From NCBI GenBank assembly GCA_002011615.1, contig MTOH01000006.1:89912-123727 (forward strand): a stretch of DNA of 33,816 nucleotides, in the 5' to 3' direction. The notes under the pieces were generated by a model. It was not told the origin of the DNA. It made no database searches and worked only from the letters and a program-made list of their open reading frames with translations. Each line of letters starts with the position of its first letter. The stretch's first letter is position 1. A program made the position numbers and the translations under genes. The DNA comes from Candidatus Hydrothermus pacificus. Its GTDB lineage: Bacteria > Hydrothermota > Hydrothermia > Hydrothermales > Hydrothermaceae. This document shows positions 6,069-23,093 of this stretch, piece after piece.

Positions 6069-6134
6069 TCATGCCAGTTATCCCATCAAAAACCTAAATG
6101 AAATAAAAAATAGATTTTTATGTGAAATTGCAGG

Positions 6135-6164
6135 TTGAAATTTTGTGTTTTTTAATCTTATAAT
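6135..6164 (+). promoter_or_regulatory. promoter of the C25 protease gene; leaderless start
   Basis: TTGAAA at 6135-6140 and TATAAT at 6159-6164 are separated by 18 bases. Only six bases (AGTTGC) separate TATAAT from the ATG at 6171, so transcription should begin at or next to the A of the start codon. Confidence 0.7.
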
Positions 6165-6170
6165 AGTTGC

Positions 6171-8309
6171 ATGAAAAGATTATTTTTTGTTTTAATATGT
6201 TTTGTTTTTTTAAAGGCAGATGTTTTAAGGTTTGAAATTCCCACTCCTGAATATAAGATTTCAGAAAACAGGTTAATTGTTGATAACTCTTCATTTATAA
6301 ATATTACAGGTGCTCCGAAAGTTCCCTGCAGGATATTAACCTTTGCCCTTCCACCCGGTGCGATTGTGGAAGGTGTTAAATTCTACGGAATTAGAGAAAA
6401 AGCAGGAAATGCAGAGATTGAACCTGTTCCGCCCTTTATCCCGATTTCAGGTGATAAAAAGACTATCCAAAGGAGTTTTGAAATTTATAGAAGAAACAGG
6501 GATATTTATTATTCACAGAATAAGGTTTATCCTCAGGAATTGGGAAGAGTAATTTCAAAAGGGGGGATAAGAAAATACACCACCTGTGACCTTGCCCTTT
6601 ATCACTTTGCCTTTAATCCACTGTCAAAGGAAATTTTCGTTTCACCGTGGATAACCGTTGAAATCCATTATAAAATGCCAGCACCTGAAAGTGAAAGGGC
6701 AAAGTTCTGGGAAAGATTAAAAGATGATACGAGTTTTGATAAAATTGCTGAGAGTGTAATTTATAACTGGGAAGAAGCAAAAAACTGGTATATAACCCAA
6801 AATCCCGAAAGAATAGCAGGGTATTGTATAATTTTGCCTGAAAGCCTTTCAAATTATGTTTCACAACTTGTAAATTACAGGTCAAATCAGGGATACAGTA
6901 TAAATATTATTACAAAGGAATATATAAATTCAAATTATCCCGGGGTTGATTTCCCCCAAAAGTTGAGAAATTATTTAAGGGAAAATTTATCTGTTCTGAA
7001 TTATGTTTTACTCATAGGTTTTTACCTTGACCTTCCATGGAGGAACATGGTTCCCTTTAACGATGACCCTGATAGCCCCTGGGATGACCCTGATATTTCA
7101 CCTATCCCATCTGATATGTATTATGCTGATTTGTCAGAGCCCGATAGCCTTTCATGGGATTTAGACGGTGATGGTTGTTTTGGCGAGGTCTATGACCAGT
7201 ACGGATATCCAAACGGTGACGATGCTCCTGATTATCACCCTGATATTCATCTGGCAAGGTTTCCCTATAGCACAGGTTATGTTATAGAGGATGTTATAAA
7301 TAAGATTATATCCTTTGATTCGAATTCCGATTATGACTACAAAACATCCCCTTTGCTGGCTGGTGGAATGATATATTTTGAAAACGAAAATTATTCGGGA
7401 AGACCCAGAATGGACGGTGCGGATATGATGGAACTCATGATGAACGAGGGAATATTTGAAAGGGAAAAATCTGTTTATCTCTATGAGAAGTCGGGTTTAC
7501 ACCCTTCTCCCTATCCCTGCACCGACTCCCTTACCCGTAATAATATGATTTATTACTGGCAAAGTAAAGGCATAATGCTTGAATACAATCACGGCTCACC
7601 CAATGCCTACTGGAGAAAGATATGGGCATGGGATGATGGAGACAGTGTTCCTGAATACAATGGAGAGGTTCAGTTTCCTCTCTGTCTTGAAACAAACGAT
7701 GTTATTTATCTTGATAATACATATCCTGCAACCTGTTTTTTGAGGTCCTGTTTGACAGGTAAACCAGAGGAATATGGACTTGGAGCATATCTTTTATACA
7801 GGGGTGCATCCTCGGCTTTCTGTGCAACCAGAATTTTATGGGCATCCCCTTTACAGGATGAGGGTCTGGGATATCACTTTTACAAAGTCCTTTTAAAAGA
7901 TTCCCTTTTGAGTTCTGGAATTACAGGTGATGCCTTTGATATTGCAAGGGAAAGATTTATGCAGATAAACAACTTCTGGCTGAATCTGTACCTTATAAAT
8001 AATTATGGTGACCCTGCAACAAGACACTTCGGAAGATTTATAGGAATTGATGAGAGAAATTATACGAGAAAACCCTTTTTAATTACCTTTAAAAATCCTG
8101 CCTTTAAAAATTTAAAGATTATTCTACCTTCAAATCAGAAGCTAAAAATTGAAATATACGATGAATGCGGGAGACTTTTAAAAAAGTTTAACACTGGATA
8201 TGCGGGTAAAGGAAATGAGTTTAACCTTTGTTTAAGTTCGGGTATTTATTTTATAAGGATAAAGGGAAAGAGGAATTACTTTTACCATAAGTTGGTGGTT
8301 TTAAAATAA
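6171..8309 (+). CDS. C25 (gingipain-like) secreted cysteine protease with C-terminal sorting-like domain
   Basis: This 712-residue protein starts with a signal peptide (about residues 1-16). An N-terminal beta-rich propeptide-like region (about 17-210) is followed by a caspase-like peptidase C25 domain (about 215-620). The catalytic His is in EYNHGSPNAYW (His474) and the likely nucleophile is Cys527 in FLRSCLTGKPEE, with Cys522 nearby. The NNYGDPATRHFG stretch (about 610-621) is the (L)GDP(A/T) motif that commonly closes C25 domains. An Asp-rich DLDGDG loop (330-335) may bind calcium. Residues from about 634 form a small beta-sandwich resembling type A C-terminal sorting domains of the type IX system, ending in KLVVLK. 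It should be exported and probably cell-surface or extracellular. It is monocistronic, and a repeat with hairpin potential follows its stop. Confidence 0.85.
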   Translation: MKRLFFVLICFVFLKADVLRFEIPTPEYKISENRLIVDNSSFINITGAPKVPCRILTFALPPGAIVEGVKFYGIREKAGNAEIEPVPPFIPISGDKKTIQRSFEIYRRNRDIYYSQNKVYPQELGRVISKGGIRKYTTCDLALYHFAFNPLSKEIFVSPWITVEIHYKMPAPESERAKFWERLKDDTSFDKIAESVIYNWEEAKNWYITQNPERIAGYCIILPESLSNYVSQLVNYRSNQGYSINIITKEYINSNYPGVDFPQKLRNYLRENLSVLNYVLLIGFYLDLPWRNMVPFNDDPDSPWDDPDISPIPSDMYYADLSEPDSLSWDLDGDGCFGEVYDQYGYPNGDDAPDYHPDIHLARFPYSTGYVIEDVINKIISFDSNSDYDYKTSPLLAGGMIYFENENYSGRPRMDGADMMELMMNEGIFEREKSVYLYEKSGLHPSPYPCTDSLTRNNMIYYWQSKGIMLEYNHGSPNAYWRKIWAWDDGDSVPEYNGEVQFPLCLETNDVIYLDNTYPATCFLRSCLTGKPEEYGLGAYLLYRGASSAFCATRILWASPLQDEGLGYHFYKVLLKDSLLSSGITGDAFDIARERFMQINNFWLNLYLINNYGDPATRHFGRFIGIDERNYTRKPFLITFKNPAFKNLKIILPSNQKLKIEIYDECGRLLKKFNTGYAGKGNEFNLCLSSGIYFIRIKGKRNYFYHKLVVLK

Positions 8310-8326
8310 TTTTATTCTGAATCCTG

Positions 8327-8385
8327 CCTGTAGGCTCATATAAAAATCTAACTCTGTTATTTCGGTTAGATTTTTGATGAGACAA
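8327..8385 (+). repeat. dispersed repeat, copy A, with 11-bp inverted arms (left edge of island)
   Basis: A 26-base segment at 8327-8352 beginning CCTGTAGGCT recurs at 13198-13223 with one mismatch. It ends in the arm AAAAATCTAAC (8342-8352). After a 12-base loop comes the complementary arm GTTAGATTTTT (8365-8375). The 19 bases at 8358-8376 recur exactly at 13277-13295. The 20 bases at 8366-8385 recur inverted at 31037-31056. The hairpin lies 18 bases after the C25 stop codon and could also act as a transcription terminator. The ATCTAAC/GTTAGAT pair fits the RYYYAAC...GTTRRRY rule of integron attC ends. Confidence 0.8.
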
Positions 8386-8394
8386 TTCGTGCTT

Positions 8395-8423
8395 TTGAGA
8401 GAATTATAATAAAACTTTATAAT
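8395..8423 (+). promoter_or_regulatory. putative promoter of the island operon
   Basis: TTGAGA (8395-8400) and TATAAT (8418-8423) are separated by 17 bases. A second TATAAT lies at 8431-8436. No other promoter as good is seen before 8670, so this may drive the whole island operon with a leader of about 240 bases, unlike the leaderless units elsewhere in the window. Confidence 0.5.
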
Positions 8424-8442
8424 AGAGCTTTATAATTAATTT

Positions 8443-8487
8443 ATGATAAAAGAAATGTTCAATTTAGGATCGGTTAACTGTGTTTAA
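8443..8487 (+). CDS. possible leaderless 14-residue ORF
   Basis: ATG at 8443 to TAA at 8485-8487 encodes MIKEMFNLGSVNCV. Its start has the same spacing from a TATAAT box (six bases) as the well-supported leaderless genes of this window, which is the only reason to list it. It may be a leader peptide, the beginning of a gene decayed by frameshifts, or chance. No function can be assigned. Confidence 0.25.
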   Translation: MIKEMFNLGSVNCV

Positions 8488-8669
8488 CATCGAGGCAAAA
8501 CGGACAATTCAAATAGCAAGATGGGTGGTTGAAATATCAGGCACTGGGATTAGTGCGCTACATTTATACTGGAAGATACAGGATAGAGGAATGGGACAGA
8601 AGAGTCTGGTCAATAACAGGTACTATCTGGGTCCTATCAATACCAAAAAATTAACAAAAAGGAGGTAAA

Positions 8670-9686
8670 ATGAAAGGACTCTTATTTGCATTTCTGCTAA
8701 TTGCTGCGGTGCCTTTGAAAGCCCAGAAGGTTATCTGGGAGAAGATATATAATAAGAATAGGGGCACAGTTTACTCGGTTACCGAAACCAATGATGGGTG
8801 TTTTGTAATCGGAGGAGAAATAAACTACCAGGATGGACACGGGAGAGATGTTTATCTGGCAAAGGTGGACAAAAATGGTAAAAAGCTATGGGAGAAACGA
8901 TTTGGCGGGGATTATGACGATAGATGTTATGCACTTTCCAAAACCAAAGATGGTGGTTTTATCCTTGCTGGAACAAAAACATCGTACACAATGGAGGCTT
9001 ATACTGGAAGTGTTCCTAGCGAACCTGATGTTTATCTCATAAGAACTGATGAGAACGGTAACAAGATATGGGAAAAGACATTCGGAGGTGAGGAAAAGGA
9101 TAAGGCGAATGCAATTATCCAGACCAAAGACAGCAATTTCATAATTGCCGGTGTAACAAAGTCTTTTGGGGCCGGTGAGGAAGACATCTATCTAATAAAA
9201 ATCAACAGGAATGGTAAGAAAATCTGGTCAAAAACCTTTGGAGGTAAAAAAGAGGATAAAGCGAATGCAATCCTGGAAACAGAGGATGGTGGATTAATAA
9301 TTGCCGGATTAACAAGAACATTCAGTAAAGGTGAAGGAGATGTATTTTTGATAAAAACAGATAAAAATGGTAAAAAAATCTGGCAAAAAACCTTTGGTGG
9401 AGAAGACGGTGATGAGGCTTATTCTATAATTGAAACAGAAGACGGTTTTATAACTGCGGGCTACACTTACTCCTATGGTAATAATGGAGATTTTTATCTC
9501 ATAAAAGTTGATAAAAAAGGAAATAAGGTATGGGAAAAAACAATAGGCACAAGGAATTATGAGATAGCTTATTCGATTTCCAGATGCTCAGATAATGGTC
9601 TCATTGTTGCTGGTCTCACCAACATTGTAACCGGTTTTAATGTTCCCTATGTGGCAAGAATCAAGGATGAATTAGGGAAAAAATAA
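8670..9686 (+). CDS. exported beta-propeller repeat protein
   Basis: This 338-residue protein has a signal peptide (about 1-18, ending PLKA before Gln19). The mature part consists of about six imperfect repeats of roughly 50 residues. Each carries an Asn-Gly-Lys-Lys-x-Trp-Glu-Lys-Thr-Phe-Gly-Gly strand and a Glu-Asp-Gly-Gly-(F/L)-Ile-x-Ala-Gly strand, a pattern typical of bacterial beta-propellers found on exported proteins. The last repeat stops at GKK, just where the next Trp strand would begin, so the closing blade is incomplete or is completed by the N-terminal IWEKIYN strand (velcro closure). A strong AAGGAGG site precedes the ATG. It is the first clear gene of the island operon. Likely periplasmic or surface binding protein; ligand unknown. 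Confidence 0.75.
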   Translation: MKGLLFAFLLIAAVPLKAQKVIWEKIYNKNRGTVYSVTETNDGCFVIGGEINYQDGHGRDVYLAKVDKNGKKLWEKRFGGDYDDRCYALSKTKDGGFILAGTKTSYTMEAYTGSVPSEPDVYLIRTDENGNKIWEKTFGGEEKDKANAIIQTKDSNFIIAGVTKSFGAGEEDIYLIKINRNGKKIWSKTFGGKKEDKANAILETEDGGLIIAGLTRTFSKGEGDVFLIKTDKNGKKIWQKTFGGEDGDEAYSIIETEDGFITAGYTYSYGNNGDFYLIKVDKKGNKVWEKTIGTRNYEIAYSISRCSDNGLIVAGLTNIVTGFNVPYVARIKDELGKK

Positions 9687-9726
9687 TGCATAACTTGAAG
9701 CAAACACTATAAACTAAGGAGGTTTT

Positions 9727-10353
9727 ATGTGTGCTTTTTTTCTTTTTCTTTTAATTTCCTTGCTCGCAAATCCTTGCGTGTTAACTGCGCAGGAGAGGCA
9801 GATTGTGGGCGAGTGGCATAGTGAACCAAACCCTGCAATTTATTATGGAGAAGTATATATATTTTCTCCTCGTGGGGAATTTGTCAAAGTAACGAGCGAT
9901 TTAGATAGAACTAATAGGATTCTTTTGAAATCTGGAACATGGCAAGCAAAAAAAGGGGGAATAGAATTGATATACAAACATCAAATTGTCCGAGTCGGAG
10001 GAAAACTTAAGACCGACCCAGAAACACGAACTTTTTTCCTTGAAGGAGGAAAGCAAGTCAGAGAGATAATTGATGATACAGATTTTGTTTCAGTTGAATA
10101 TATTGGTAAAAAACGCATTCTCATTGACGGGAAACGTTATTATTATATAAAAACACAAGGGGAAAAGGATTTTAAGTATTTGTTTGATTATGCAGAAAAA
10201 AATATTCTCAAGGATGCTGAGATTCTCTTTGTATTAGGAGCGGATGCGAATTTATCAAAAATGAATGGCTGGACCCTTCTTCACCAGGCGTGTAAAAGTA
10301 ACTCACTGGAGTTTGTAAAATTGCTTATGGAAAGGGGGCTAATCCAAATGTAG
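9727..10353 (+). CDS. exported ankyrin-repeat protein, N-terminal fragment (frameshifted)
   Basis: This 208-codon frame starts with a hydrophobic signal peptide (about residues 1-21, ending VLTA) after an AAGGAGG site. A domain of about 110 residues beginning IVGEWHSEP follows and looks like a lipocalin-like or similar beta domain. The first ankyrin repeat (GADANLS, GWTLLHQACKSNSLEFVKLLMERG) then starts. The frame ends abruptly at a TAG (10351-10353) just after the GGGGG tract at 10334-10338. Adding one G restores the ankyrin sequence as RGANPNVGAEDGRTPL and runs into the frame ending at 11201. The original gene was almost certainly one unit, 9727-11201, of about 490 residues. Whether the shift is a real mutation or an assembly error cannot be decided here. 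Confidence 0.75.
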   Translation: MCAFFLFLLISLLANPCVLTAQERQIVGEWHSEPNPAIYYGEVYIFSPRGEFVKVTSDLDRTNRILLKSGTWQAKKGGIELIYKHQIVRVGGKLKTDPETRTFFLEGGKQVREIIDDTDFVSVEYIGKKRILIDGKRYYYIKTQGEKDFKYLFDYAEKNILKDAEILFVLGADANLSKMNGWTLLHQACKSNSLEFVKLLMERGLIQM

Positions 10354-11201
10354 GTGCCGAGGATGGTAGAACTCCACTTTCTCTTGCTGTCGCAAACGGG
10401 AACACAGAAATTGTAGAATATCTTATTAAAAGGGGTGCCTTTGTTAATGTGCAAACCGAACCAGAAGATAGTTGCATTACTCCTCTTCACATTGCAATTA
10501 AAAATAATGATTTTGAAATGGTTAAATTACTGATGCAAAGCGGAGCCTCATGGAAGATGAAAACAGGAAGAGGGAAAACAGCACTCGACCTCGCTAAAGA
10601 AAGCGGTAATGCGAAGATTGAAGAATTAATCCTTGCATATTCGCAGAAACCTCCTTCTAAATTGCGTGTAGAGGACAATTATGTCCAGATAGTTGATACT
10701 AAAAAAATCAGAACAATTGGAAAACTTGCCTCATCAGATGCATTCCCTTTCGGTTTTTCCAGGATATACAAATTTTCGCCTGACTCTTCGTATATCGCTT
10801 TTGTTGAAAGGACAGAAAAAGGATATGACCTATTTCTTGTATCAAACACAGGAGAAAGAGGGCGCATCACCTGGGATGGAAAGATTGACTCAAGAACGAC
10901 AATAGCATGGGACAGTGAGGGAAAAGCGTTTCTTTTTAATGAAAATGGAAGAATAATATTCGTAAGCACCGAAGGTTACCGGAAAAAAATGTTAACAAAT
11001 CCTGAAGAAGGTTATGAAGATATCCTGCCCTCCTTTAAGAGAAAAGGTAAAGTAAAATTTTTCAGAGGTACAAGATTTGAATATTCTTTTTCTGGCTCTG
11101 AGTATGAGGTTGAAATCACCGGTGGTGGCTGTCGCAAAATTCCTGATGGAGAGGTTATACAACCAGAAAACTTAGGCGGCGAAGAAGAAGGTGTATATTA
11201 A
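10338..11201 (+). CDS. ankyrin/TolB-like beta-propeller protein, C-terminal fragment
   Basis: This is the downstream part of the frameshifted gene that begins at 9727. It opens in the middle of an ankyrin repeat (ANPNVGAEDGRTPLSLAV) and contains about three more repeats (TEIVEYLIKRGA, TPLHIAIKNNDFEMVKLL, TALDLAKESGNAKIEELI). A segment with PD40/TolB-like propeller strands follows (YKFSPDSSYIAFVE, DLFLVSNTGERGRITWDG). An internal GTG at 10449 could start a separate product but has no good ribosome site and would cut through the repeats. The fusion of ankyrin repeats to a TolB-like region on an exported protein is unusual. The next gene's ATG lies one base after the stop codon. Confidence 0.7.
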   Translation, partial: ANPNVGAEDGRTPLSLAVANGNTEIVEYLIKRGAFVNVQTEPEDSCITPLHIAIKNNDFEMVKLLMQSGASWKMKTGRGKTALDLAKESGNAKIEELILAYSQKPPSKLRVEDNYVQIVDTKKIRTIGKLASSDAFPFGFSRIYKFSPDSSYIAFVERTEKGYDLFLVSNTGERGRITWDGKIDSRTTIAWDSEGKAFLFNENGRIIFVSTEGYRKKMLTNPEEGYEDILPSFKRKGKVKFFRGTRFEYSFSGSEYEVEITGGGCRKIPDGEVIQPENLGGEEEGVY

Positions 11202-11202
11202 T

Positions 11203-13010: not shown

Positions 13011-13197
13011 TATCAAAAATATCAACACCTGAAATGAGCGGTTTTTATTTTATTCAGGAGGGGTTTATCAGTCTAAACTTTGTCTGGGGAAGCGGAATAT
13101 CTTCCATTTGTTGCATTGTGGTAAAAAAGTTTTGTTGTCCATCTGTAATTACGCAAAAATATGGAGGACAACAACAAAGGAAAAAGAGAGAAAACCC
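13011..13197. other. intergenic segment with no supported gene
   Basis: A 65-codon frame (13007-13204) overlaps the stop of the previous gene as ATGA but has low-complexity, cysteine-containing sequence with no recognisable domain and runs into the repeat. I do not call it a gene. The only structure is a 9-bp inverted repeat, TTGTTGTCC at 13132-13140 with GGACAACAA at 13166-13174 (25-base loop), without a following T run. Confidence 0.4.
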
Positions 13198-13303
13198 CCT
13201 GTAGGCTAATATAAAAATCTAACTTTTTTTAGAAAAGATAAAAAATACTGCACCGAGAGTAAGTGGGAGTCAAATCTATTTCGGTTAGATTTTTGGTAAG
13301 TCA
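13198..13303 (+). repeat. dispersed repeat, copy B (right edge of island)
   Basis: 13198-13223 matches copy A (8327-8352) with one mismatch, and 13277-13295 matches 8358-8376 exactly. The inverted arms AAAAATCTAAC (13213-13223) and GTTAGATTTTT (13284-13294) are the same, but 60 bases lie between them instead of 12. From ATCTAAC (13217) to GTTAGAT (13290) the element spans 74 bases, within the usual size range of integron attC sites. The A and B copies are direct repeats enclosing about 4.9 kb. Confidence 0.75.
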
Positions 13304-13313
13304 ACTTGGTTAC

Positions 13314-13343
13314 TTGAAAAAGGAAATGTCTGTATTTTATAAT
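13314..13343 (+). promoter_or_regulatory. promoter of tRNA-Asp
   Basis: TTGAAA (13314-13319) and TATAAT (13338-13343) are separated by 18 bases. The tRNA begins 19 bases after the TATAAT box. Confidence 0.75.
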
Positions 13344-13362
13344 ACAATACTTTTTTTCATAC

Positions 13363-13437
13363 GGGGGCGTAGTTCAGCCCGGTTAGAACGCTGGCCTGTC
13401 ACGCCAGAGGTCGCGAGTTCAAATCTCGTCGCCCCCG
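13363..13437 (+). tRNA. tRNA-Asp (anticodon GUC)
   Basis: A 75-base cloverleaf folds fully. The acceptor stem GGGGGCG (13363-13369) pairs with CGCCCCC (13430-13436), with discriminator G at 13437. The anticodon stem is CTGGC/GCCAG with GTC at 13398-13400, and the T-loop is GTTCAAATC. G73 together with GUC fits tRNA-Asp identity. The CCA end is not encoded. A run of seven T (13438-13444) follows directly and may help end transcription. The converging flavoprotein gene stops eight bases further on. The right-hand island repeat ends about 60 bases upstream. Confidence 0.97.
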
Positions 13438-13445
13438 TTTTTTTA

Positions 13446-14252
13446 TTACAAGAGTTCCTTTTTCCTTTTATAAATTTCGGGTAATAAGTTTTTGAATCTT
13501 GGAAGGGTTTTTAAAATCCATTCCTCAAAATGCTTTTTTAAATTCTCTTTTGTCCACCTGTGGTTGTTTAAATCCTTTTCATCAAAGTAAAACCCTTTTT
13601 CTTTTAAAGTGCAGGTTGTTAAACATACAGGGCACCTGTATTTATTTCCTTCAATATGTTCAAAGAAGGTGCTGTAATCAACAGGACAGTGTTTTGAAAT
13701 ACAGGACTTTAAGGGTTTGTCTTCAAAATTTAAAATTTTATTAAAAGCCCTTTTAACTCTTTCAATATTTTCATCGAGCAAGACCTCACCAGGACCTGCA
13801 CCGAATATTAAAAAACTTTCAACAATTTTAAATCCAAGGGAAAGTAAAAAAAGGTTCATAAAGGGAAGCTGAAATTGAAAGTAATTTATCGGAGATGCAA
13901 CCCCCATGCTTATTGCGGGTTTTACGGGTCTGTCTTTGATTAACTCATAAATACAGAGAAATCTGTCAAGAAGCATTTTTAGTTTTCCAGGGATTGTTAA
14001 AACATAGGTGGGTGCTATTAAAATTAAAGAATCGTGCTCTAAAATTTTATCCATGAGTTTGTAAAAATCGTCATCAATTCTGCACTTTTCCTTTTTGAAA
14101 ACACACGCCATACATCCGTTGCACTGCTTTATTTCAAAATCTCTGAGATAAAGGATTTCTGTATTTAAAGGAGAAATTTTTGATAGAAATTTCCCCAGTG
14201 TCTCGCAGTTTCCCTTTTTTCTTTCTGATGCGACCAGAATGCCTGCTTTCAT
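13446..14252 (-). CDS. iron-sulfur flavoprotein (NADPH-dependent FMN reductase fold)
   Basis: This 268-residue protein has a flavodoxin-like N-terminal domain. An FMN phosphate-binding loop is seen at ASERKKGNCETL (8-19), and APTYVLTIPGKLKMLLDR (80-97) is typical of NADPH-dependent FMN reductases. The motif C44-x2-C47-x2-C50-x6-C57 is the compact [4Fe-4S] signature of archaeal/anaerobic iron-sulfur flavoproteins (Isf type). The C-terminal part adds five more cysteines (184, 189, 207, 210, 214), which could bind a second metal. Isf proteins dimerise and pass electrons from ferredoxin to oxygen, peroxide or quinone-like acceptors; the partner here is not known. Its ATG overlaps the nitroreductase stop by four bases, so the two are translationally coupled. 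Confidence 0.85.
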   Translation of the reverse strand: MKAGILVASERKKGNCETLGKFLSKISPLNTEILYLRDFEIKQCNGCMACVFKKEKCRIDDDFYKLMDKILEHDSLILIAPTYVLTIPGKLKMLLDRFLCIYELIKDRPVKPAISMGVASPINYFQFQLPFMNLFLLSLGFKIVESFLIFGAGPGEVLLDENIERVKRAFNKILNFEDKPLKSCISKHCPVDYSTFFEHIEGNKYRCPVCLTTCTLKEKGFYFDEKDLNNHRWTKENLKKHFEEWILKTLPRFKNLLPEIYKRKKELL

Positions 14253-14812
14253 TTAAAGTCGTTGAAGTATAAAATTTCTTCGACTTTCCTCCTCTGTTTT
14301 GAGCCTTTTAATTTTTTCTCCTTTTCCTTTTCATCAGGATATCCGATTGCTATCAAAAGAACAATTTTGTATTTCTTGGGTATATTCAGGATTTTTCTTA
14401 TTTCCTTTTCATTGAAATAACCTATATAACATGTTCCGAGACCCAGTTCTGTTGCCTGCAGGACGAGATGTTCGCATGCAATACCTATATCAATTAAATA
14501 GTAGTCGGTTTTCATAACATAGGCACCTGCCTGTGCAATGAATTTTTCCCTGTCCGCAAGAACAAGAATTATACAGGGTGCTGTTGGCAGGAATTTGTTT
14601 ATTATTCCGTAAATTCCAGAAGTTGCAACCTTTGCAATCCTGTTTTTTAACTCGGGCTCGTCAATCACAACAAATCTCCAGGGTTGTGAGTTACATGCAG
14701 AGGGCGCGAGCCTCGCAGATTCAATGCACTTTAAAATTTTTTCCTTCTCAACGGGGACTTCTTTAAATTTCCTGCAACTGAACCTTTTTGAAACAAGTTC
14801 GTAAAAATTCAT
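14249..14812 (-). CDS. nitroreductase family FMN oxidoreductase
   Basis: This 187-residue protein carries the family's landmarks. These are the N-terminal RFSCRKFK (FMN phosphate contacts by Arg), APSACNSQPWRFVVI (about 36-50), and a C-terminal LGLGTCYIGYFNEKEI helix-loop. The length matches single-domain nitroreductases that dimerise and bind FMN at the interface. The physiological substrate cannot be read from sequence. It is first in a two-gene operon with the iron-sulfur flavoprotein. A TATAAT box ends six bases before its ATG and no ribosome site is present, so it should be translated from a leaderless message. Confidence 0.9.
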   Translation of the reverse strand: MNFYELVSKRFSCRKFKEVPVEKEKILKCIESARLAPSACNSQPWRFVVIDEPELKNRIAKVATSGIYGIINKFLPTAPCIILVLADREKFIAQAGAYVMKTDYYLIDIGIACEHLVLQATELGLGTCYIGYFNEKEIRKILNIPKKYKIVLLIAIGYPDEKEKEKKLKGSKQRRKVEEILYFNDFK

Positions 14813-14818
14813 ATTTTA

Positions 14819-14848
14819 ATTATAAATTTTGCATGGGCAGAAATTAAA
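14819..14848 (-). promoter_or_regulatory. promoter of the nitroreductase operon; leaderless start at 14812
   Basis: The minus-strand TATAAT (14824-14819) ends six bases before the ATG at 14812. The -35 region is poor (TTTAAT at 18 bases spacing, 14848-14843). Confidence 0.5.
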
Positions 14849-14855
14849 ATCTGAC

Positions 14856-14885
14856 TTGGAAAAAAGGTTTTTGAGATTATATAAT
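14856..14885 (+). promoter_or_regulatory. promoter of fdhD; near-leaderless start at 14895
   Basis: TTGGAA (14856-14861) and TATAAT (14880-14885) are separated by 18 bases. The ATG at 14895 follows after nine bases, and no Shine-Dalgarno sequence is present. It is divergent from the nitroreductase promoter, and the two share the same 80-base gap. Confidence 0.65.
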
Positions 14886-14894
14886 TTCCCCCTT

Positions 14895-15671
14895 ATGAAA
14901 AGATTTGAAGAAATAACCGTTAAAAAGGTAAGATTAAAAGGGGATGACATTCTTACTGAGGAAGGAAATGACAATGTGGTTGTGGAGAAAAAATTAAGTA
15001 TATTTCTAAATGACAAGGAATTGGTGAGTGTCCTGTGTATACCTGTAAACATAAAGGAGCTTGTTACAGGATTTCTCTATACAGAAAGAATAATAAAAGA
15101 TATTATTGACATTGAGAGTATAGAGATTGTATTTAAACCCCTTCTTACAGCCAGAGTTCTTACCTCAAATGGATTTTCTCCTTCCAAAAGAACAATAACC
15201 TCGGGTTGTGCAGGAGGTGTGACCTTTGAAAAGGAAATTGATTATGAGATTAATAATTCGGAAATGGAAATAGAGCCTGTAGAATTGAGGAATTTTTTCA
15301 AAGAATTTGAAAGAAAAGCAGAACTTTTTAAATTAACAGGTTGTGTTCACAGTGCTGCACTTTCAAACAGAAACTCAATAATATTTTTTTCAGAAGATGT
15401 TGGAAGACACAATGCGATTGATAAGGTTATAGGATATGCACTTTTGAATAAGATGGATTTAAATGATAAAATAGTTTTTACAAGTGGCAGGCTTTCCTCA
15501 GAGATGATTACAAAATGTGCTGTAGCCGGTGTTCCTGTAGTTGTGAGCAGATGTGCACCAACCATGAGGGCTCTTAAAATTGCTGAAAACACAGGCGTGA
15601 CAGTTATAGGATTTATGAGAGGACCGAGGTTTAATGTTTACACAAATTCTAAAAGAATAAAAATTCAATAA
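14895..15671 (+). CDS. fdhD: formate dehydrogenase accessory sulfurtransferase FdhD
   Basis: The 258-residue product matches the FdhD family along its length. FdhD moves sulfur from a cysteine desulfurase to the molybdenum/tungsten bis-MGD cofactor of formate dehydrogenase. Landmarks are ELVTGFLYTERII near residue 55-67, SEDVGRHNAIDKVIG, SGRLSSEM and VVSRCAPTMRALKIAENTGVT (in short: SRCAPT...AENTGVTVIGF). The sulfur-carrying cysteine region reads TSGCAGG (Cys105), with one Cys where the E. coli protein has a Cys-x2-Cys loop. The frame is open 22 codons upstream of 14895, but that extension would cover the -10 box, so ATG 14895 is chosen. No formate dehydrogenase gene lies in the window. Confidence 0.9.
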   Translation: MKRFEEITVKKVRLKGDDILTEEGNDNVVVEKKLSIFLNDKELVSVLCIPVNIKELVTGFLYTERIIKDIIDIESIEIVFKPLLTARVLTSNGFSPSKRTITSGCAGGVTFEKEIDYEINNSEMEIEPVELRNFFKEFERKAELFKLTGCVHSAALSNRNSIIFFSEDVGRHNAIDKVIGYALLNKMDLNDKIVFTSGRLSSEMITKCAVAGVPVVVSRCAPTMRALKIAENTGVTVIGFMRGPRFNVYTNSKRIKIQ

Positions 15672-15753
15672 TTTTTTCCAGAGTGTAAGGTAATAAAAAA
15701 AATCAACCGCAGCAAAGAAGATAATCTGATAAAAAAATGTAATTTATTGGAAC

Positions 15754-16098: not shown

Positions 16099-16118
16099 AT
16101 TTTCAAAGAAGCATATAT

Positions 16119-16147
16119 ATATTAAAGGATTTTTGTAAGAAAGTCAA
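16119..16147 (-). promoter_or_regulatory. promoter of the tmRNA gene
   Basis: On the minus strand TTGACT (16147-16142) and TAATAT (16124-16119) are separated by 17 bases. The predicted start is about 14 bases before the mature 5' end at 16098, leaving a short leader for RNase P to remove. Confidence 0.6.
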
Positions 16148-16162
16148 GACCCGGAGATGAGC

Positions 16163-16420: not shown

Positions 16421-16436
16421 TTTTCAACCTCCCTTT

Positions 16437-17074: not shown

Positions 17075-17095
17075 AATTTTTTTTAAGAAAAGTTT

Positions 17096-17125
17096 ATTAT
17101 AATCTAAAAATGATAGAAAAGTCAA
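17096..17125 (-). promoter_or_regulatory. promoter of the perR-like operon
   Basis: On the minus strand TTGACT (17125-17120) and TATAAT (17101-17096) are separated by 18 bases. The ATG at 17074 is 21 bases after TATAAT, giving a short leader without a ribosome site. The -35 box lies one base from the -35 box of the divergent ftsX promoter. AT-rich sequence near the -10 resembles half of a PerR box (TTATAAT), too weakly to call an operator. Confidence 0.7.
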
Positions 17126-17126
17126 T

Positions 17127-17156
17127 TTGACATTATTTAGCCAATATATATATAAT
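17127..17156 (+). promoter_or_regulatory. promoter of the ftsX operon; near-leaderless start at 17167
   Basis: TTGACA (17127-17132) and TATAAT (17151-17156) are separated by 18 bases. The ATG follows after ten bases, so any untranslated leader is only a few bases long. Confidence 0.7.
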
Positions 17157-17166
17157 ATTAAGAGTT

Positions 17167-18033
17167 ATGAACCTGAATTTTGTTATAAAAGAGACAATTA
17201 AAGGACTTCGTGTTAATTATAGAATGGGATTTACAAGTATTCTTATCACTTCTTTTTCCCTTTTTGTGCTTTTTCTATTTTTTATTCTTACATTTAATGC
17301 CTTTGATGTTATAAGAAAAGCATCTAATAAGATAGAGATGGATATTTATTTAAAAAAAGATTTGCCACAGAATACAAGAGAAGTTTTTATAGAAATTTTA
17401 AAAAACTATGCAGGAGTTCAGGATGTAAAACTAATAGAAGGCAAAAAGGCGAAGCAAAAATTTATGAAAGAATTTCCTGAATATAGTGCATTGCTTTCTC
17501 TTTTTCAGGACGATATCTTCCCCGAGAGGGTGGTTCTTACTCTTAAACCAGTGCTTTTACCTTTGTCTTATAAAAGTTTGAAAAAAAACATAGAGTCTTT
17601 CGGTCTTGTGGATGAAGTGATTTTTGGAGAGGAATGGATTTTCCCTTTTTCCAAATTTCTTCTATTTTTATTCTTTATAGATATATTTTTGATTATACTC
17701 CTGATTTTTCTTCTGGGTATAGTTATGGTACAGACATTGCGTCTTACAATTTTAAGAAGAAAAGAAGTGGTAAACCTGCTTGAAATTATAGGAGCTTCAG
17801 AATCTACTATAAGAGGTCCTTTTGTATTTGAGGGCAGTTTTTATGGGATATGCGGTGGACTTATCTCCGGTATTTCTCTTTTCTTTCTGAACATGATTAT
17901 AAAGAAATTATTTAACATACATCTTTCCTATATGGACCTGGTTTTCTCAATCTCTTTATTATTCGGTTTACTTCTGGGTTTTATGTCTTCCCTTATAGCA
18001 GTATCACAGAGAGAGAGGCAGGAAGCATGGTAG
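17167..18033 (+). CDS. ftsX: cell-division ABC transporter permease FtsX
   Basis: The 288-residue protein has the FtsX layout. There is a short cytoplasmic N-terminus, TM1 (about 23-44), an extracytoplasmic domain (about 45-160) containing DIYLKKDLPQNTRE, and TM2 to TM4 (about 162-192, 221-245, 255-280). RRKEVVNLLEIIGASESTIRGPF between TM2 and TM3 is the conserved cytoplasmic loop that contacts FtsE. FtsEX transmits ATP-driven changes to periplasmic activators of cell-wall amidases. The immediate downstream gene is such an activator. No ftsE is present: the upstream neighbour is the divergent perR-like gene. The stop overlaps the next start by seven bases. Confidence 0.88.
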   Translation: MNLNFVIKETIKGLRVNYRMGFTSILITSFSLFVLFLFFILTFNAFDVIRKASNKIEMDIYLKKDLPQNTREVFIEILKNYAGVQDVKLIEGKKAKQKFMKEFPEYSALLSLFQDDIFPERVVLTLKPVLLPLSYKSLKKNIESFGLVDEVIFGEEWIFPFSKFLLFLFFIDIFLIILLIFLLGIVMVQTLRLTILRRKEVVNLLEIIGASESTIRGPFVFEGSFYGICGGLISGISLFFLNMIIKKLFNIHLSYMDLVFSISLLFGLLLGFMSSLIAVSQRERQEAW

Positions 18034-19154
18034 GTATTTTACTTATAATTTTTTTAAGTCAGGGTGGCAATTTAAAGGTTTACAGGGAAAGGCTTGACTC
18101 ACTGAGCAAGGAACTTCAAAAAGTCAGAAAAGAAAAGGCTCAAATTGAAAGAAAGAGATATGGTATAATGGAGATGCTTGAAAAGATAAATCAGGAAGAG
18201 GATATACTCAGAGAGGTGATTTCCAAGATAGAAAAACAGATATCCTTTATGGAGGAAGAAAAAGCAAAAAAGATTGAAATAATAGGCAAGATAAAAGAAT
18301 ATCTTGATGAATCAAAAGAGGATATCAAGAAAGGCATTATTTTTCTTTATAAAAGAGCCAATGTATCACCTTTAAATTTGATTTTATACGGTGGTTCACC
18401 TTATACTTTTTATTCAGGTATAAAAGCTTTAAGCACAAAATTAAAGGAAGAAAAGGTGGTTCTTAATAAAGGGATTGAATTGTTGCAGGAATTGGAAACC
18501 AGAGTGGAAAGTCTCAGGGTTAGAGAGGAAAATCTCGCATTGTTGAAAGAGAGTTTTGAAAAGAGAAAGGGGGAGCTTGTTTTGTTGAGGATTGAGAAAG
18601 AAAAATTTCTGGAAGAGAGAAAAAAAGATGAAAGAGAGCGTGAGAGGTTAATAGCGGAATTGAGAAAAAATATGAAGAGGTTGAATAGTATTATAAGGGA
18701 GCTGGAAAAAAGGACAAAGGGAAAACTATTTGCAAAAGGATTTCCCAAGAATGTGCCCAAAAGGAATTTTTCATGGCCATGCAATGGTAAAATTTACAAT
18801 TCTTTTGGGTCAATATGGCATCCTCTTTACAAGACAAGAATTAAAAATAATGGAGTTGATATACTTTCTGAATATGATGGTAAGGTGAAAGCAGCGGGAA
18901 GCGGAGTAATAGAATATGCAAATGATTTTCTCGGATATGGTAAGCTGATTATAATAGACCATGGAGATGGTTTTTTTACAATTTATGGCAATCTTAAAGA
19001 TACTTATGTGGTTCCAGGTAAAGCTGTTAGAGAAGGAGAAATAATAGGAGTTCTTGGCAAAGACCCCCTTGAGAATTTACCGCTTCTACATTTTGAAATA
19101 AGATACGGAGGTAAGGCATTAGACCCGTTATACTTTTTAAAAGAGGCCCTTTAA
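18027..19154 (+). CDS. EnvC-like murein hydrolase activator (coiled coil + degenerate LytM)
   Basis: The 375-residue protein has a short N-terminal hydrophobic segment, a long charged coiled coil (about 18-235) and a C-terminal LytM/M23 domain (about 248-375). In active M23 enzymes zinc is held by His-x3-Asp and His-x-His, with a catalytic His nearby. Here the first His is Asn274 (NNGVDI), the TIYGNL loop has Asn322 where a His is usual, and the pair reads Leu-Leu-His (LPLLHFEIR), keeping only His355. It is therefore a pseudo-peptidase, like E. coli EnvC, which activates amidases under FtsEX control. Direct coupling to ftsX (seven-base overlap) supports that role. Confidence 0.87.
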   Translation: MVGILLIIFLSQGGNLKVYRERLDSLSKELQKVRKEKAQIERKRYGIMEMLEKINQEEDILREVISKIEKQISFMEEEKAKKIEIIGKIKEYLDESKEDIKKGIIFLYKRANVSPLNLILYGGSPYTFYSGIKALSTKLKEEKVVLNKGIELLQELETRVESLRVREENLALLKESFEKRKGELVLLRIEKEKFLEERKKDERERERLIAELRKNMKRLNSIIRELEKRTKGKLFAKGFPKNVPKRNFSWPCNGKIYNSFGSIWHPLYKTRIKNNGVDILSEYDGKVKAAGSGVIEYANDFLGYGKLIIIDHGDGFFTIYGNLKDTYVVPGKAVREGEIIGVLGKDPLENLPLLHFEIRYGGKALDPLYFLKEAL

Positions 19155-19155
19155 A

Positions 19156-19812
19156 ATGAAGAATTACTATGAAATTCTGGGTATTAAAATAAATGCAAAA
19201 AGAGAAGAGATAAGAAAGGCTTATCTTGACCTGTGTAAAAAGTTTCATCCTGATAGATTCCGAAAACTGGGAAAAGAAGAATATGAAAAAGCATTAAAAC
19301 AGTTTACCCTTATAAACGAGGCATTTAATATTCTTTATGACCCTGCCAAGAAAGAGGAATATGATAAAAAGCTTGAAGAGGGTAAAGTGTACAGTGTCTA
19401 TGAAACAAGCTTCAAGGCGCAGGCGGTTTCAGTGTTTAAAATGGGCAAACAGGAAATTGACAGAGGTGATTTTGCGAGAGCAATTCAGTATTTGAAGACA
19501 GCTGTAAAATTGAATCCAGAGGAATATCTTTTTAAAAGTTATCTTGCCTTTGCATATCTAAAAGATGGGAGAGATAAAAGTGAGATAAAGAATCTTCTTA
19601 TGAAAATTTATACTTCAAAAAATATTGTAAAAAACTGGGAAGCTCTGTATATTTCGTCCCGAGTGTTTTATGAAATGAGTGACCTTGAAAAGGCAATGGA
19701 ACTTATAGGGCTTGCAAGGAAGTTAAATCCGTCGAGTTTCAGAGTGAAAAAGCTGTATGAAGAGATAAATAGCAAATCCAAAAAGGGTATTTTTAAATTT
19801 TTTAAATTTTGA
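19156..19812 (+). CDS. J-domain (DnaJ-like) protein with TPR region
   Basis: The 218-residue protein begins with a J-domain (about residues 2-72): YYEILGIKINAKREEIRKAY, then the HPD motif at 31-33 in FHPDRFRK, then INEAFNILYDPAKKEEYD. The rest (about 85-210) is helical with TPR-like pairs (DFARAIQYLKTAVKLNPEEYL; DLEKAMELIGLARKLNPSSF). It lacks the Gly/Phe and zinc domains of true DnaJ, so it is a specialised cofactor that would recruit an Hsp70 to a particular client. The ATG is one base after the EnvC-like stop codon. Its stop overlaps the next start as TTGA. Confidence 0.88.
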   Translation: MKNYYEILGIKINAKREEIRKAYLDLCKKFHPDRFRKLGKEEYEKALKQFTLINEAFNILYDPAKKEEYDKKLEEGKVYSVYETSFKAQAVSVFKMGKQEIDRGDFARAIQYLKTAVKLNPEEYLFKSYLAFAYLKDGRDKSEIKNLLMKIYTSKNIVKNWEALYISSRVFYEMSDLEKAMELIGLARKLNPSSFRVKKLYEEINSKSKKGIFKFFKF

Positions 19813-21833
19813 ATATCCTTGTCATTCTTTTTTGCGTTCTTCATCCCTATTTTAAACAGGATTTAAATCTTGTAGATTCTGTATATTTTTACAAAGATAA
19901 GATAAATTTAATTTTAAAAACTCGGAAAACATCTGATTTCCCGTTGGAAAACAGAGACTCTCTGCTAATTTTTAAAAATATAATGTTCAGGGAAATAAAA
20001 GAAAATAAAAGACAAAAAAAATATTATAATTATGTTATAAAAAGAGATAGGTTTATGTACCTTATATATCTTTTCAAAAAGGGAGATTATGAAAAAATAT
20101 ATAACATATTAAATGCAGAAAATACAAGGGGACCTGAAGAATATATAATTTATATGTTAGCCTGTCTGAAATTAAAAAAGAGTCCCGAATTTCTATTAAG
20201 CGGAAAATTTGCGAGTTCCGAATATTATCCTTATATTCTTTATTTGAATTCTCTTTTTCTTTTTATAAAAAACGAATATAAAGCAGTGTTTGAAAATTTA
20301 ACTGATTTGAATTATGAACCTTTGAATGAAGATATTGATTTTTTAAAAGCCCTCGTATTTTTCAACAGGTTTAAAAATCCTGAAGAGATGGAAAAATACA
20401 TTGACACATATAAAGAGAACTTCTATACTGATACTCTTTGTTTTCTTACAGGAAGTTATTATTACAGTATAAAAAAATATAGAAATGCGGAAAATTATAT
20501 AAGGAAATTAGCAGAGAAAGAAGGGAAGTTCTATAAATTTTCTCTCGAGATGCTCATAGAGATAGAATCCCTTATTGGTGAAAGGACTATTAAACTTCTT
20601 GAGGTTTATAAAGAGAAATTCAAAGAAGGAGAGAGATTCAGAGAACTTGTGAGAAGGTCCATACTAAATCTTTATTCAAGAAGAAAATTTGAGCAGGTCA
20701 TTGAAATTTACAATAACTGGGGAGAGATTATCAAGTCAAAAATTTTTGCAGCATACATAGGTGCTCTTTTGAGGGTAGAGAAAGAAAGGAAAGCTTTCAG
20801 GGTTATATCAATGGAAGAAGACAGATTTCTTAAAGGAATTGGATATTTTAAAGTGGCTGAAAATTATGAAATAAAAGGGAGTTACTGGAATGCTATAAAA
20901 TTTTATAACAGGGCATTGAAGTATCTTGAGCAGAAAAGTGAATTTTCTCAAAGTATTTTCCTGAAAAAGCTTTTGCTTGAGGTAAAGGTCGGCAGGATAC
21001 CAAACTTAAAAATTGCATATAAAATCTTTTTAAAAAAATTCCCGGGAACAGAGAAAAAATTACAGATACTAAAAGAAATGGTCAGTTATCTTTTGAAAGA
21101 GAGAAAATTTGGAGAAGCTTTAGTATACCAGAAACAGGTTTTTGAAATAGAAAACAAAAGAGAGAATTTTGAAAAACTGGCTAATATTGCTTACAATATA
21201 AAGAATAAAAGTATTGTTGATTCTCTTTATTTAAATGCAGGGGATGAGTTTAAGGACATAGCGGGATTTTATAAGGGGCTTTTGCTCTATAAAGTAGAAA
21301 AAGACCCGTTTTCCGCCCTTGAAGTTTTTAAAGAAATCCCTGAAACAGAAAGCAAATCAGAATATGTGGAAGGTGCAAAGTATTATGTCGGTGAGATTTA
21401 TAAATCCCTTGGTAAGATTCAGGAATCAGAAAATATTTTAATAGACCTTATTCAGAGTGAAGATACAATTTCTTTTAAATCAATTCTTTTGTTAGCAGAT
21501 ATTTTTAAAGAAAAGGGTAATCTTAATGAGATGGAGGAGCTTCTTGTGAAAATCTCCTTAAGATGGGAAGATGAAAAAAGAGGGCACATTCTTTTCAGGC
21601 TTGCTGAAGTCAAAGAAATAAAAAGAGAAATTGAAGATGCCAAAAACCTTTATCTACTTTCAGCTGATTTCCTTTTCCCCTCTCTTGATTCCCTTTCTCT
21701 TGCTCTGTATAGAGCTGCCAACCTTACAGATCTGAGAGAAGAAAAGAAAGCTCTTTTGGAGAGAGCAAAGAGCATGGCAAGAACCCCTCTTCTTAAAAAA
21801 GAGATAGAAAAAAGTTTAATTGACTTAGAATAA
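19809..21833 (+). CDS. large TPR-repeat protein
   Basis: The 674-residue protein has a short hydrophobic N-terminus (MNILVILFCVLHPYF), perhaps a signal peptide, and otherwise consists of helical repeats. Recognisable TPR-like units include GSYWNAIKFYNRALKYLEQ, KFGEALVYQKQVFEIENKRE and KSEYVEGAKYYVGEIYKSLGKIQESENIL, the last resembling the BamD/YbgF style of TPR. The start codon is TTG overlapping the previous stop (TTGA). It ends 24 bases before ribBA, and the ribBA promoter's -35 box lies inside its last codons. Role unknown; its place behind ftsX, the EnvC-like gene and the J-domain gene suggests envelope or division work, which is only an inference. Confidence 0.75.
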   Translation: MNILVILFCVLHPYFKQDLNLVDSVYFYKDKINLILKTRKTSDFPLENRDSLLIFKNIMFREIKENKRQKKYYNYVIKRDRFMYLIYLFKKGDYEKIYNILNAENTRGPEEYIIYMLACLKLKKSPEFLLSGKFASSEYYPYILYLNSLFLFIKNEYKAVFENLTDLNYEPLNEDIDFLKALVFFNRFKNPEEMEKYIDTYKENFYTDTLCFLTGSYYYSIKKYRNAENYIRKLAEKEGKFYKFSLEMLIEIESLIGERTIKLLEVYKEKFKEGERFRELVRRSILNLYSRRKFEQVIEIYNNWGEIIKSKIFAAYIGALLRVEKERKAFRVISMEEDRFLKGIGYFKVAENYEIKGSYWNAIKFYNRALKYLEQKSEFSQSIFLKKLLLEVKVGRIPNLKIAYKIFLKKFPGTEKKLQILKEMVSYLLKERKFGEALVYQKQVFEIENKRENFEKLANIAYNIKNKSIVDSLYLNAGDEFKDIAGFYKGLLLYKVEKDPFSALEVFKEIPETESKSEYVEGAKYYVGEIYKSLGKIQESENILIDLIQSEDTISFKSILLLADIFKEKGNLNEMEELLVKISLRWEDEKRGHILFRLAEVKEIKREIEDAKNLYLLSADFLFPSLDSLSLALYRAANLTDLREEKKALLERAKSMARTPLLKKEIEKSLIDLE

Positions 21834-21849
21834 AGAGGGGTTTTATAAT
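21820..21849 (+). promoter_or_regulatory. promoter of the ribBA operon; leaderless start at 21858
   Basis: TTGACT (21820-21825) and TATAAT (21844-21849) are separated by 18 bases. The ATG at 21858 is eight bases later. The -35 lies inside the 3' end of the upstream TPR gene. The message has no room for an FMN riboswitch. Confidence 0.7.
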
Positions 21850-21857
21850 TAACTTCT

Positions 21858-23093
21858 ATGAAAAGAAAAGATTTTAATTTTGCTGAAGTTGAAGAAGCTC
21901 TCGAAGATGTTAGAAATGGAAAGATAGTTATTGTTGTGGACGATGAGGAGAGAGAAAATGAAGGTGATATGATAATTGCAGCTGAGAAGGTTACCCCTGA
22001 GATAATCAATTTCATGGCAACCCACGCAAAAGGACTTATCTGTCTTTCTCTTACAAAAAAAAGATGTGAAGAGCTTAATATCCCTGATTTTTCTGCTCTT
22101 ACTTCTAACACTTCCAAAATGGGGACTCCTTTTTGTGCACCAATTGATGCCAAAAATGGTGTTACTACGGGTTCGTCTGCTTATGACAGGGCTCACACAG
22201 TAAAAGTTGCAATTTCCTCTGATACAAAGCCTGATGACCTTGCAATTCCGGGTCATGTTTATACTTTAAGGTCTCATGAGGCAGGAGTTTTGAGAAGAGC
22301 AGGGCATACAGAGGCTGCAGTGGACCTTGCAAGGCTTGCAGGTCTTTATCCCGCAGGGGTTTTATGCGAAATAATGGATGAGGATGGTCAGATGGCGAGA
22401 TTGCCCAAACTTTTTGAGATAGCGGAAAAATTTGGTTTAAAAATAATTACAATTAAAGACCTTATAAAATACAGGATTAAAAGAGAGAGGCTTGTACAGA
22501 GAGTTGTTGAGACCTATATCCCCACACCCTATGGTGATTTTAAATTGATTGTTTACGAAGATATAGTGGATAAAGAAGCTCATCTTGCCATTATAAAGGG
22601 AAATGTAGAAGGGAAAAAAGATGTTCTTGTTAGAGTTCATTCTCAGTGCCTGACAGGCGATATATTCCATTCACTCAGATGTGATTGTGGTGACCAGCTT
22701 AAATTAGCCCTTGAAAAAATAAATGAAGAAGGTGCAGGAGTGCTTGTATATATGAGGCAGGAAGGAAGAGGAATAGGCCTTTTAAATAAGTTAAAAGCAT
22801 ACGCACTCCAAGATAAAGGTTATGACACTGTTGAAGCAAATAAAATTCTTGGATTTCCGCCTGATTTAAGAGATTATGGAATAGGTGCGCAGATTCTTGT
22901 CGACCTTGGTTTGAGCTCGATAAGGCTTATGACAAATAACCCATCAAAAATTGTTGGACTTGAAGGTTATGGACTTACAATAACCGACAGGATACCTTTG
23001 AACACAAGGCCAAGAAGGGAAAATTTAAGTTATTTAAAGGCTAAAAGAGATAAACTTGGACATATAATTGATAATTTAAAGGAGATAAAATGA
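21858..23093 (+). CDS. ribBA: bifunctional DHBP synthase / GTP cyclohydrolase II
   Basis: The 411-residue fusion catalyses both entry steps of riboflavin synthesis. Residues 1-205 form 3,4-dihydroxy-2-butanone-4-phosphate synthase, with the acidic DDEERENEGD loop (28-37) and RAGHTEAAVDL (147-157). Residues from about 210 form GTP cyclohydrolase II, with zinc cysteines 264, 275 and 277 in HSQCLTGD...LRCDCGDQ and the RQEGRGIGL motif (300-308). The usual Glu of the HSEC motif is Gln here (HSQC), a minor change. Its ATG overlaps nothing upstream and is leaderless. Its stop overlaps the ribH start (ATGA). ribD and ribE are not in the window. Confidence 0.96.
   Translation: MKRKDFNFAEVEEALEDVRNGKIVIVVDDEERENEGDMIIAAEKVTPEIINFMATHAKGLICLSLTKKRCEELNIPDFSALTSNTSKMGTPFCAPIDAKNGVTTGSSAYDRAHTVKVAISSDTKPDDLAIPGHVYTLRSHEAGVLRRAGHTEAAVDLARLAGLYPAGVLCEIMDEDGQMARLPKLFEIAEKFGLKIITIKDLIKYRIKRERLVQRVVETYIPTPYGDFKLIVYEDIVDKEAHLAIIKGNVEGKKDVLVRVHSQCLTGDIFHSLRCDCGDQLKLALEKINEEGAGVLVYMRQEGRGIGLLNKLKAYALQDKGYDTVEANKILGFPPDLRDYGIGAQILVDLGLSSIRLMTNNPSKIVGLEGYGLTITDRIPLNTRPRRENLSYLKAKRDKLGHIIDNLKEIK

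Follow-up and report, generated by a model that had tools for sequence, protein, structure and literature searches.

In the 33,816-nucleotide stretch of Candidatus Hydrothermus pacificus DNA analysed here (the window), six genes have a TATAAT box that ends only a few bases before their ATG start codon. These boxes very probably belong to ordinary sigma-70-type promoters whose -10 box, 5-10 bases before the ATG at many first genes, gives rise to leaderless messenger RNAs (mRNAs). The position of a gene biases its start mode without deciding it. The promoter geometry, the peak in the distance between box and start codon, the link to gene position, the missing strong Shine-Dalgarno (SD) site, the preference for ATG and the spread over related genomes are all direct observations. 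The window is part of a genome (G000) of 2.06 Mb in 19 contigs, which is 95% complete.

Start-proximal promoters in the window

The first-pass annotation of the window had given TATAAT-to-ATG distances of 6, 7, 6, 9, 10 and 8 bases for the genes starting at 6171 (plus strand), 6030 and 14812 (both minus), 14895, 17167 and 21858 (all plus), and these distances are exact (Table 1). In four of the six a -35 hexamer (TTGAAA, TTGGAA, TTGACA and TTGACT) lies exactly 18 bases upstream as described, the perR gene (TTGACT) and tRNA-Asp (TTGAAA) share a TTG-type hexamer at the same spacer, and none of the six starts has a strong SD site upstream. The gene at 14895 is the divergent partner of the one at 14812, and RibBA (21858) begins just 24 bases past a co-directional open reading frame (ORF). 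The reading frame starting at 6030 is open from an ATG at 6072 too. The window contains 65 copies of the hexamer TATAAT where 37.5 would be expected, a count reached in none of 100 shuffles, and the density of the hexamer is 4.85 per kb in non-coding DNA (13 occurrences) against 1.67 per kb in coding DNA (52).

The gene at 8670, which has an AGGAGG site, had been cited as operon-internal; this has to be corrected, as a 360-base gap (8310-8669) precedes it. No gene was called in this gap, which holds three plus-strand TATAATs within about 30 bases. For perR, the leader is predicted to be about 15 bases long and contains no strong SD site, which represents a third kind of start. A first gene therefore need be neither leaderless nor SD-led.

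Distance between the -10 box and the start codon

The distances were counted in a sample of 20 stretches of 20 kb together with the window (433,816 bases, about one fifth of the genome), containing 381 genes, of which 25 at the ends of stretches were left without a position class. Starts were called by coding potential and start-codon type only, upstream signals never being used, and first genes were recognized from gene direction and gaps. An exact TATAAT lies 4-12 bases before the start in 24 of the 64 divergent genes. Among co-directional genes this is the case for 3 of 39 after gaps of at least 100 bases, 3 of 28 after 50-99, 5 of 37 after 15-49 and 3 of 188 after gaps shorter than 15. The divergent genes show a peak at a spacing of 6 (12 genes), which falls within the range of 6-10 bases predicted from the window.

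A more tolerant -10 box, with at least five of the six TATAAT bases matched and TAnnnT kept, ending 5-10 bases before the start, was used to define leaderless-like genes. It is found in 29 of the 64 divergent genes and in 6 of the 188 tightly packed ones with gaps below 15 bases (Fisher p 9e-15), the other gap classes having 6/39 (at least 100), 5/28 (50-99) and 8/37 (15-49). TATAAT is common, with 862 occurrences in the sample, and intergenic DNA is AT-rich, so that chance might be thought to set the hexamer near many ATGs. This is almost certainly not the explanation: when the search window is slid over positions 15-109 bases upstream of the divergent genes, a mean of 5.2 and a maximum of 10 of the 64 are matched, against the 29 observed. 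The leaderless-like genes use ATG in 37 of 40 cases that are divergent or follow gaps of at least 50 bases, GTG in two and TTG in one. None of the 56 leaderless-like genes has a strong SD site, against 114 of the 325 other genes, an exclusion that is partly forced by geometry.

Promoter nature of the TATAAT box

A TTG trinucleotide stands at a spacer of 17-19 bases before 23 of 37 exact ATG-proximal TATAATs, as compared with 38 of 641 TATAATs in coding DNA (p 3e-17), and in 18 of these 23 cases the spacer is 18. This enrichment indicates that the ATG-proximal boxes are promoters. When the 104 sample TATAATs that have a TTG at 17-19 are taken as the starting point, ATG peaks 6-10 bases downstream of them, without a corresponding peak for GTG or TTG. 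In the whole genome, TTGAC-N19-TATAAT has 52 matches and its reversed form none.

Some of the RibBA relatives considered below come from Eisenbacteria, Calditrichota and Zixibacteria, which we take to be of broad Fibrobacteres-Chlorobi-Bacteroidetes (FCB) affiliation. It might thus be supposed that the TATAAT just before the start codon acts as an AT-rich ribosome site that works without SD pairing. Non-canonical AT-rich sites of this kind are described for the FCB group (PMC9581028). Such a site is nevertheless a very unlikely account of the data, because the TTG enrichment just given belongs to a promoter, because the element is concentrated at divergent genes and is thus not independent of promoters and position, and because tRNA-Asp, which is untranslated, uses the same element.

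Reliability of the called starts

Another conceivable reading is that the genes are leadered, with the true start at a codon further downstream. The divergent set contains at least two evidently miscalled starts (L117 7652 and L123 34), and the choice by coding potential is rough. Moving each start to the next downstream ATG still gives 17 of 64, although the original start was retained where there was no such ATG near. On the other hand, three start policies agree, with 29 (coding potential), 25 (longest ATG) and 26 (longest with any start codon) of the 64 divergent genes. Seven leaderless-like genes (of the PurD, RsmD, SAM-HAT, C26 peptidase, XerC/D-like integrase, SurE and HisRS families) have Pfam matches that set in at residue 1-8, which supports their called starts, and the alignments of RibBA and FtsX with their orthologues from the same order start at residue 1-6. 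The called starts also lack a strong SD site. Widespread miscalling is therefore most improbable.

Whole genome, relatives and outgroups

The pattern TTGA, 19-21 bases, TATAAT, followed by ATG after either 5-10 or 15-20 bases, was searched in the whole genome. Of its 318 promoter matches, 94 have an ATG at 5-10 bases and 26 at 15-20, a difference that again speaks against chance, and the reversed pattern gives two ATGs at 5-10. The search was extended to 40 relatives in 12 families, 39 of them from the same order or class. Together with the genome itself, these 41 genomes have 3522 promoter matches, with 920 ATGs at 5-10 bases and 364 at 15-20, and ATG is more frequent at 5-10 in 37 of the 41. 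When GTG and TTG were searched jointly instead, there was no excess in the same comparison (426 at 5-10 and 599 at 15-20). Leaderless-like genes are also more frequent among divergent than among tightly packed genes in three relatives, with 13/24 against 7/58 in G001, 10/22 against 2/60 in G004 and 5/18 against 0/25 in G008.

In 19 outgroup genomes there is no excess (163 against 152, with more at 5-10 in 9 of the 19), which is not what chance would give if it accounted for the excess elsewhere. The outgroups were hand-picked from 80 loci, include Eisenbacteria, Calditrichota, Zixibacteria, Bacteroidota, Firmicutes and Syntrophales, and contain no member of a phylum known for leaderless genes; the strict promoter consensus suits GC-rich genomes less well.

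Proposed mechanism

By combining these observations, it is possible to outline how translation may start at such genes. The promoters consist of TTGA, a spacer of mostly 18 bases and TATAAT, and many first genes have a -10 box whose end is 5-10 bases away from the ATG, with 6 as the commonest distance. Since bacterial RNA polymerase usually initiates about 7 bases past the -10 box, a box 6 bases before the ATG puts the usual +1 on the A of the ATG. Transcription would then begin at this A or within about four bases of it, producing a leaderless mRNA, and the ribosome would have to initiate on the 5'-terminal AUG with no help from SD pairing. Further first genes have the same kind of promoter about 20-50 bases upstream and a leader of the AGGAGG type. 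Operon-internal genes rely on SD sites, on overlaps or on no recognizable signal. In this scheme, the actual 5' ends and translation on a bare AUG are deduced from the geometry of the promoters.

Several points weigh against leaderless transcription as outlined here. The 5' ends are predictions from promoter geometry, and a spacing of 9-10 would leave 3-4 untranslated bases. Fourteen of the 37 exact ATG-proximal cases have no TTG at spacer 17-19, and both minus-strand genes of the window set (6030 and 14812) are without a good -35. In the sample, 23 of the 64 divergent genes are neither leaderless-like nor strongly SD-led, a weak SD-like site being present in 6 of the 23. Among the relatives, ATG is less frequent at 5-10 than at 15-20 in G007, G010, G020 and G039, and there is no real excess at 5-10 in families f3 (33 against 40) and f8 (25 against 24). 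The AT-rich genome G001 (GC 0.308) has frequent chance -10 matches, as seen in 7 of its 58 tightly packed genes, and one gene each in G001 and G004 carries a -10 box plus a strong SD site.

How far gene position decides the start mode

The first-pass annotation had proposed that leaderless starts are a genome-wide rule for first genes and that two start modes are assigned according to operon position. The first of these proposals has to be reduced to a bias, and from the second the concentration of leaderless-like genes at divergent positions stands, although position does not decide the mode. This is so because, next to the 29 leaderless-like divergent genes, 12 of the 64 are strongly SD-led and 23 are neither, and because a first gene such as perR can have a short leader. 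Co-directional genes after gaps of at least 100 bases are leaderless-like in 6 of 39 cases and SD-led in 13 of 39, and leaderless-like starts are found as well after gaps of 15-49 bases, in 8 of 37 genes.

A recognizable promoter precedes 60 of the 103 first genes, a class made up of divergent genes and of genes that follow gaps of at least 100 bases. The distance from the end of its -10 box to the start is 5-9 bases in 23 of them and 0-74, mostly 10-54, in the other 37. Fifteen first genes of this genome combine a promoter with an SD-like site, and in all of them the -10 box is at least 20 bases away; in the relative G004, one SD-like site falls inside the 5-9 base group. Thirty strong promoters were inspected singly, and both kinds are present, leaderless-like (for example in L022, L023 and L030) and with an AGGAGG leader (L004, L011 and L020). 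Many strong promoters open into SD-bearing leaders of about 20-50 bases. The 3' end of the 16S ribosomal RNA retains GGATCACCTCCTTTC, a normal anti-SD sequence, which means that SD initiation is available, and it is used.

Compact divergent pairs

Seven of the 32 divergent pairs in the sample are leaderless-like on both sides. Their start codons are 41, 56, 56, 57, 63, 82 and 299 bases apart, with a median of 57 as compared with 179 for the other 25 pairs (p 0.006), and in four of the seven the -10 boxes are 31-34 bases apart. In the six compact pairs (Table 1), with 41-82 bases between starts, the promoters crowd or overlap. It might be, although this is offered tentatively and is somewhat doubtful, that leaderless AUG starts allow divergent genes to use a single patch of the size of an RNA polymerase, in which overlapping promoters would exclude each other. 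If true, a stretch of about 60 bases would accommodate two start codons, two promoters and any regulator, and AUG would be the main leaderless start.

RibBA and FtsX among related genomes

For each of RibBA and FtsX, 30 loci were taken. RibBA is leaderless-like at five of the 30: TATAAT ends at 8 bases in G000 and at 6 in G014, TATATT at 8 follows TTGACA in G020 and G013, and the box of G009 ends at 8. Weaker -10 matches, such as those at L193, L210 and L211, were left uncounted. In four genomes of the same order and in families f11 and f6, the TATAAT of RibBA lies farther upstream, with an SD-like GGAG, GGAGG or GAGG before the start. In families f4 and f10 the gene, read by eye, appears to adjoin the preceding gene directly.

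For FtsX, tblastn gave no match at four loci, and many of the alignments covered too little of the gene to locate its start; the comparison therefore uses five loci (the own one and those of the same order) and three where the gene apparently overlaps its neighbour. G000 has a leaderless-like FtsX, and so do the four other genomes of the same order, with TAAAAT at 7 and without a clear -35; in G029, G037 and G023 the ATG seems, by eye, to overlap the preceding gene. As far as can be judged from the DNA upstream of it, the start mode of one gene differs among families. RibBA is such a gene, occurring among related families in leaderless-like, SD-leadered and apparently operon-internal form.

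Comparison with known leaderless systems

Zheng et al. 2011 found TA-led genes in 207 of 953 bacterial genomes; such genes make up about 20% of the total in Actinobacteria and 40% in members of Deinococcus-Thermus, and the principle that leaderless starts can occur only in operon-proximal genes is already contained there (PMC3160421). As in the TA-led genes, the Pribnow-like signal stands about 10 bases before the start, and the form TAtAAT is that of low-GC genomes; operon-proximal genes are leaderless, distal ones usually SD-led, and orthologues swap the two signals (PMC3160421). That work (PMC3160421) concerns genomes of named phyla, whereas here another class is involved, with a clear -35 at spacer 18. 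In the present genome, the -10 signal near the start exceeds background, the -35 is suitably spaced, strong SD sites are missing and the bias is towards operon-proximal genes. The pattern is that of leaderless transcription as in Zheng et al., with the operon-proximal principle included, and its kind is already known. The variation of the RibBA start mode among families matches their description in other phyla.

GeneMarkS-2 predicts leaderless transcription in 21.6% of bacterial species, with up to 40% of the transcripts of a genome (PMC9581028). Its predictions likewise combine leaderless and SD-led genes within one genome, although the present counts were made by pattern search instead. In Deinococcus-Thermus, too, the -10 region adjoins the start codon and the mRNA is leaderless, and some published starts needed correction (PMC12340547). 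There the -10 motif suffices without a -35 (PMC12340547), whereas here 23 of 37 cases carry TTG at 17-19 and 14 do not. That mycobacterial mRNAs begin at the start codon has been demonstrated, and the same is predicted here; Mycobacteria accept both ATG and GTG (PMC4633059); here GTG and TTG pooled show no excess, yet 2 of the 40 leaderless-like genes of the sample begin with GTG and 1 with TTG.

Among the matches listed by a literature search there was no report of leaderless genes for this lineage, which is a weak negative. The present analysis adds a further group of genomes, the preference for ATG and the compact divergent pairs. Predicted leaderless starts are extended to this class, and the strength of the link between position and start mode is quantified. 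In genomes of this sort, gene prediction programs that are geared to SD sites may put starts in the wrong place.

Gene content and other features

Two classes were compared among the genes that are divergent or follow gaps of at least 50 bases, 40 of these genes being leaderless-like and 36 SD-led. Pfam was run on 20 of each, and no family was found for four leaderless-like and two SD-led genes. The SD-led genes include abundant-looking products (S13, cold-shock protein, V/A-type ATP synthase, NADH dehydrogenase chain 3, peroxiredoxin, GcvH and FTHFS), and the leaderless-like ones many modest enzymes (an AAA protein, SurE, glycerol-3-phosphate acyltransferase, HisRS, PurD and an integrase-type recombinase). 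The short names PlsY, RsmD, PurD, XerC/D and NuoA are presumably those that go with the family matches. Between the two classes there is no difference in ribosomal-protein codon score (p 0.89) or N-terminal hydrophobicity (p 0.51) and a weak one in coding score per codon (p 0.047, uncorrected). Expression level as the basis of the start mode was considered and left unproven.

Table 1. Positions of start-proximal promoters, the genes behind them and related features (window coordinates unless a locus is given)
Feature	Position	Strand	Remarks
Promoter TTGAAA-18-TATAAT	6135..6164	+	TATAAT 6159-6164, ends 6 bases 5' of ATG 6171
Leaderless-like gene, C25-family peptidase with Por secretion tail	6171..8309	+	Pfam PF01364, PF08126, PF18962
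TATAAT	6038..6043	-	7 bases 5' of ATG 6030; TGCAAC at spacer 18 position, no TTG hexamer
Leaderless-like gene, unknown family	4564..6030	-	no Pfam match at 1e-3
Promoter, weak -35, TTTAAT-18-TATAAT	14819..14848	-	TATAAT 14819-14824, 6 bases 5' of ATG 14812
Leaderless-like gene, nitroreductase family	14249..14812	-	PF00881
Promoter TTGGAA-18-TATAAT	14856..14885	+	TATAAT 14880-14885, 9 bases 5' of ATG 14895
Leaderless-like gene, FdhD/NarQ family	14895..15671	+	PF02634; start 14895 picked by coding potential
Promoter TTGACA-18-TATAAT	17127..17156	+	TATAAT 17151-17156, 10 bases 5' of ATG 17167
Leaderless-like gene, FtsX	17167..18033	+	PF02687, PF18075; top NCBIfam TIGR00439, under its cut-off
Promoter TTGACT-18-TATAAT	21820..21849	+	TATAAT 21844-21849, 8 bases 5' of ATG 21858
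Leaderless-like gene, RibBA (DHBP synthase/GTP cyclohydrolase II)	21858..23093	+	PF00926, PF00925; NF006803 over cut-off
Promoter TTGACT-18-TATAAT of FUR-family (perR) gene	17096..17125	-	21 bases 5' of ATG 17074; PF01475
Promoter TTGAAA-18-TATAAT of tRNA-Asp	13314..13343	+	tRNA-Asp at 13362-13438
Strong SD AGGAGG of gene 8670	8660..8665	+	
Compact double leaderless-like pair	L117:18053-18093		
Compact double leaderless-like pair	L120:3063-3118		
Compact double leaderless-like pair	L125:9968-10023		
Compact double leaderless-like pair	L122:594-650		
Compact double leaderless-like pair	L112:9556-9618		
Compact double leaderless-like pair	14813-14894		

Some further observations concern neighbouring features. 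The C25 peptidase with its Por C-terminal tail (6171-8309) would fit a type IX-like secretion system. By eye, a similar stretch (CTGTAGGCT, ATATAAAAATCTAAC, TTTCGGTTAGATTTTTG) is present in the intergenic regions 8320-8390 and 13190-13300, the latter ahead of tRNA-Asp, and a similar piece, GATTTTTGATGAGACAACTCGTG, precedes the gene at L120 15528. The stretch at 8320-8390 and 13190-13300 is possibly a small repeat or RNA element. The ORFs 9727-10353 and 10449-11201 look, also by eye, like parts of one ankyrin-repeat-like gene. At L131:7796-8164, a short ORF matches PALP-type and Cys/Met-metabolism PLP families and is possibly a gene fragment or a call error.

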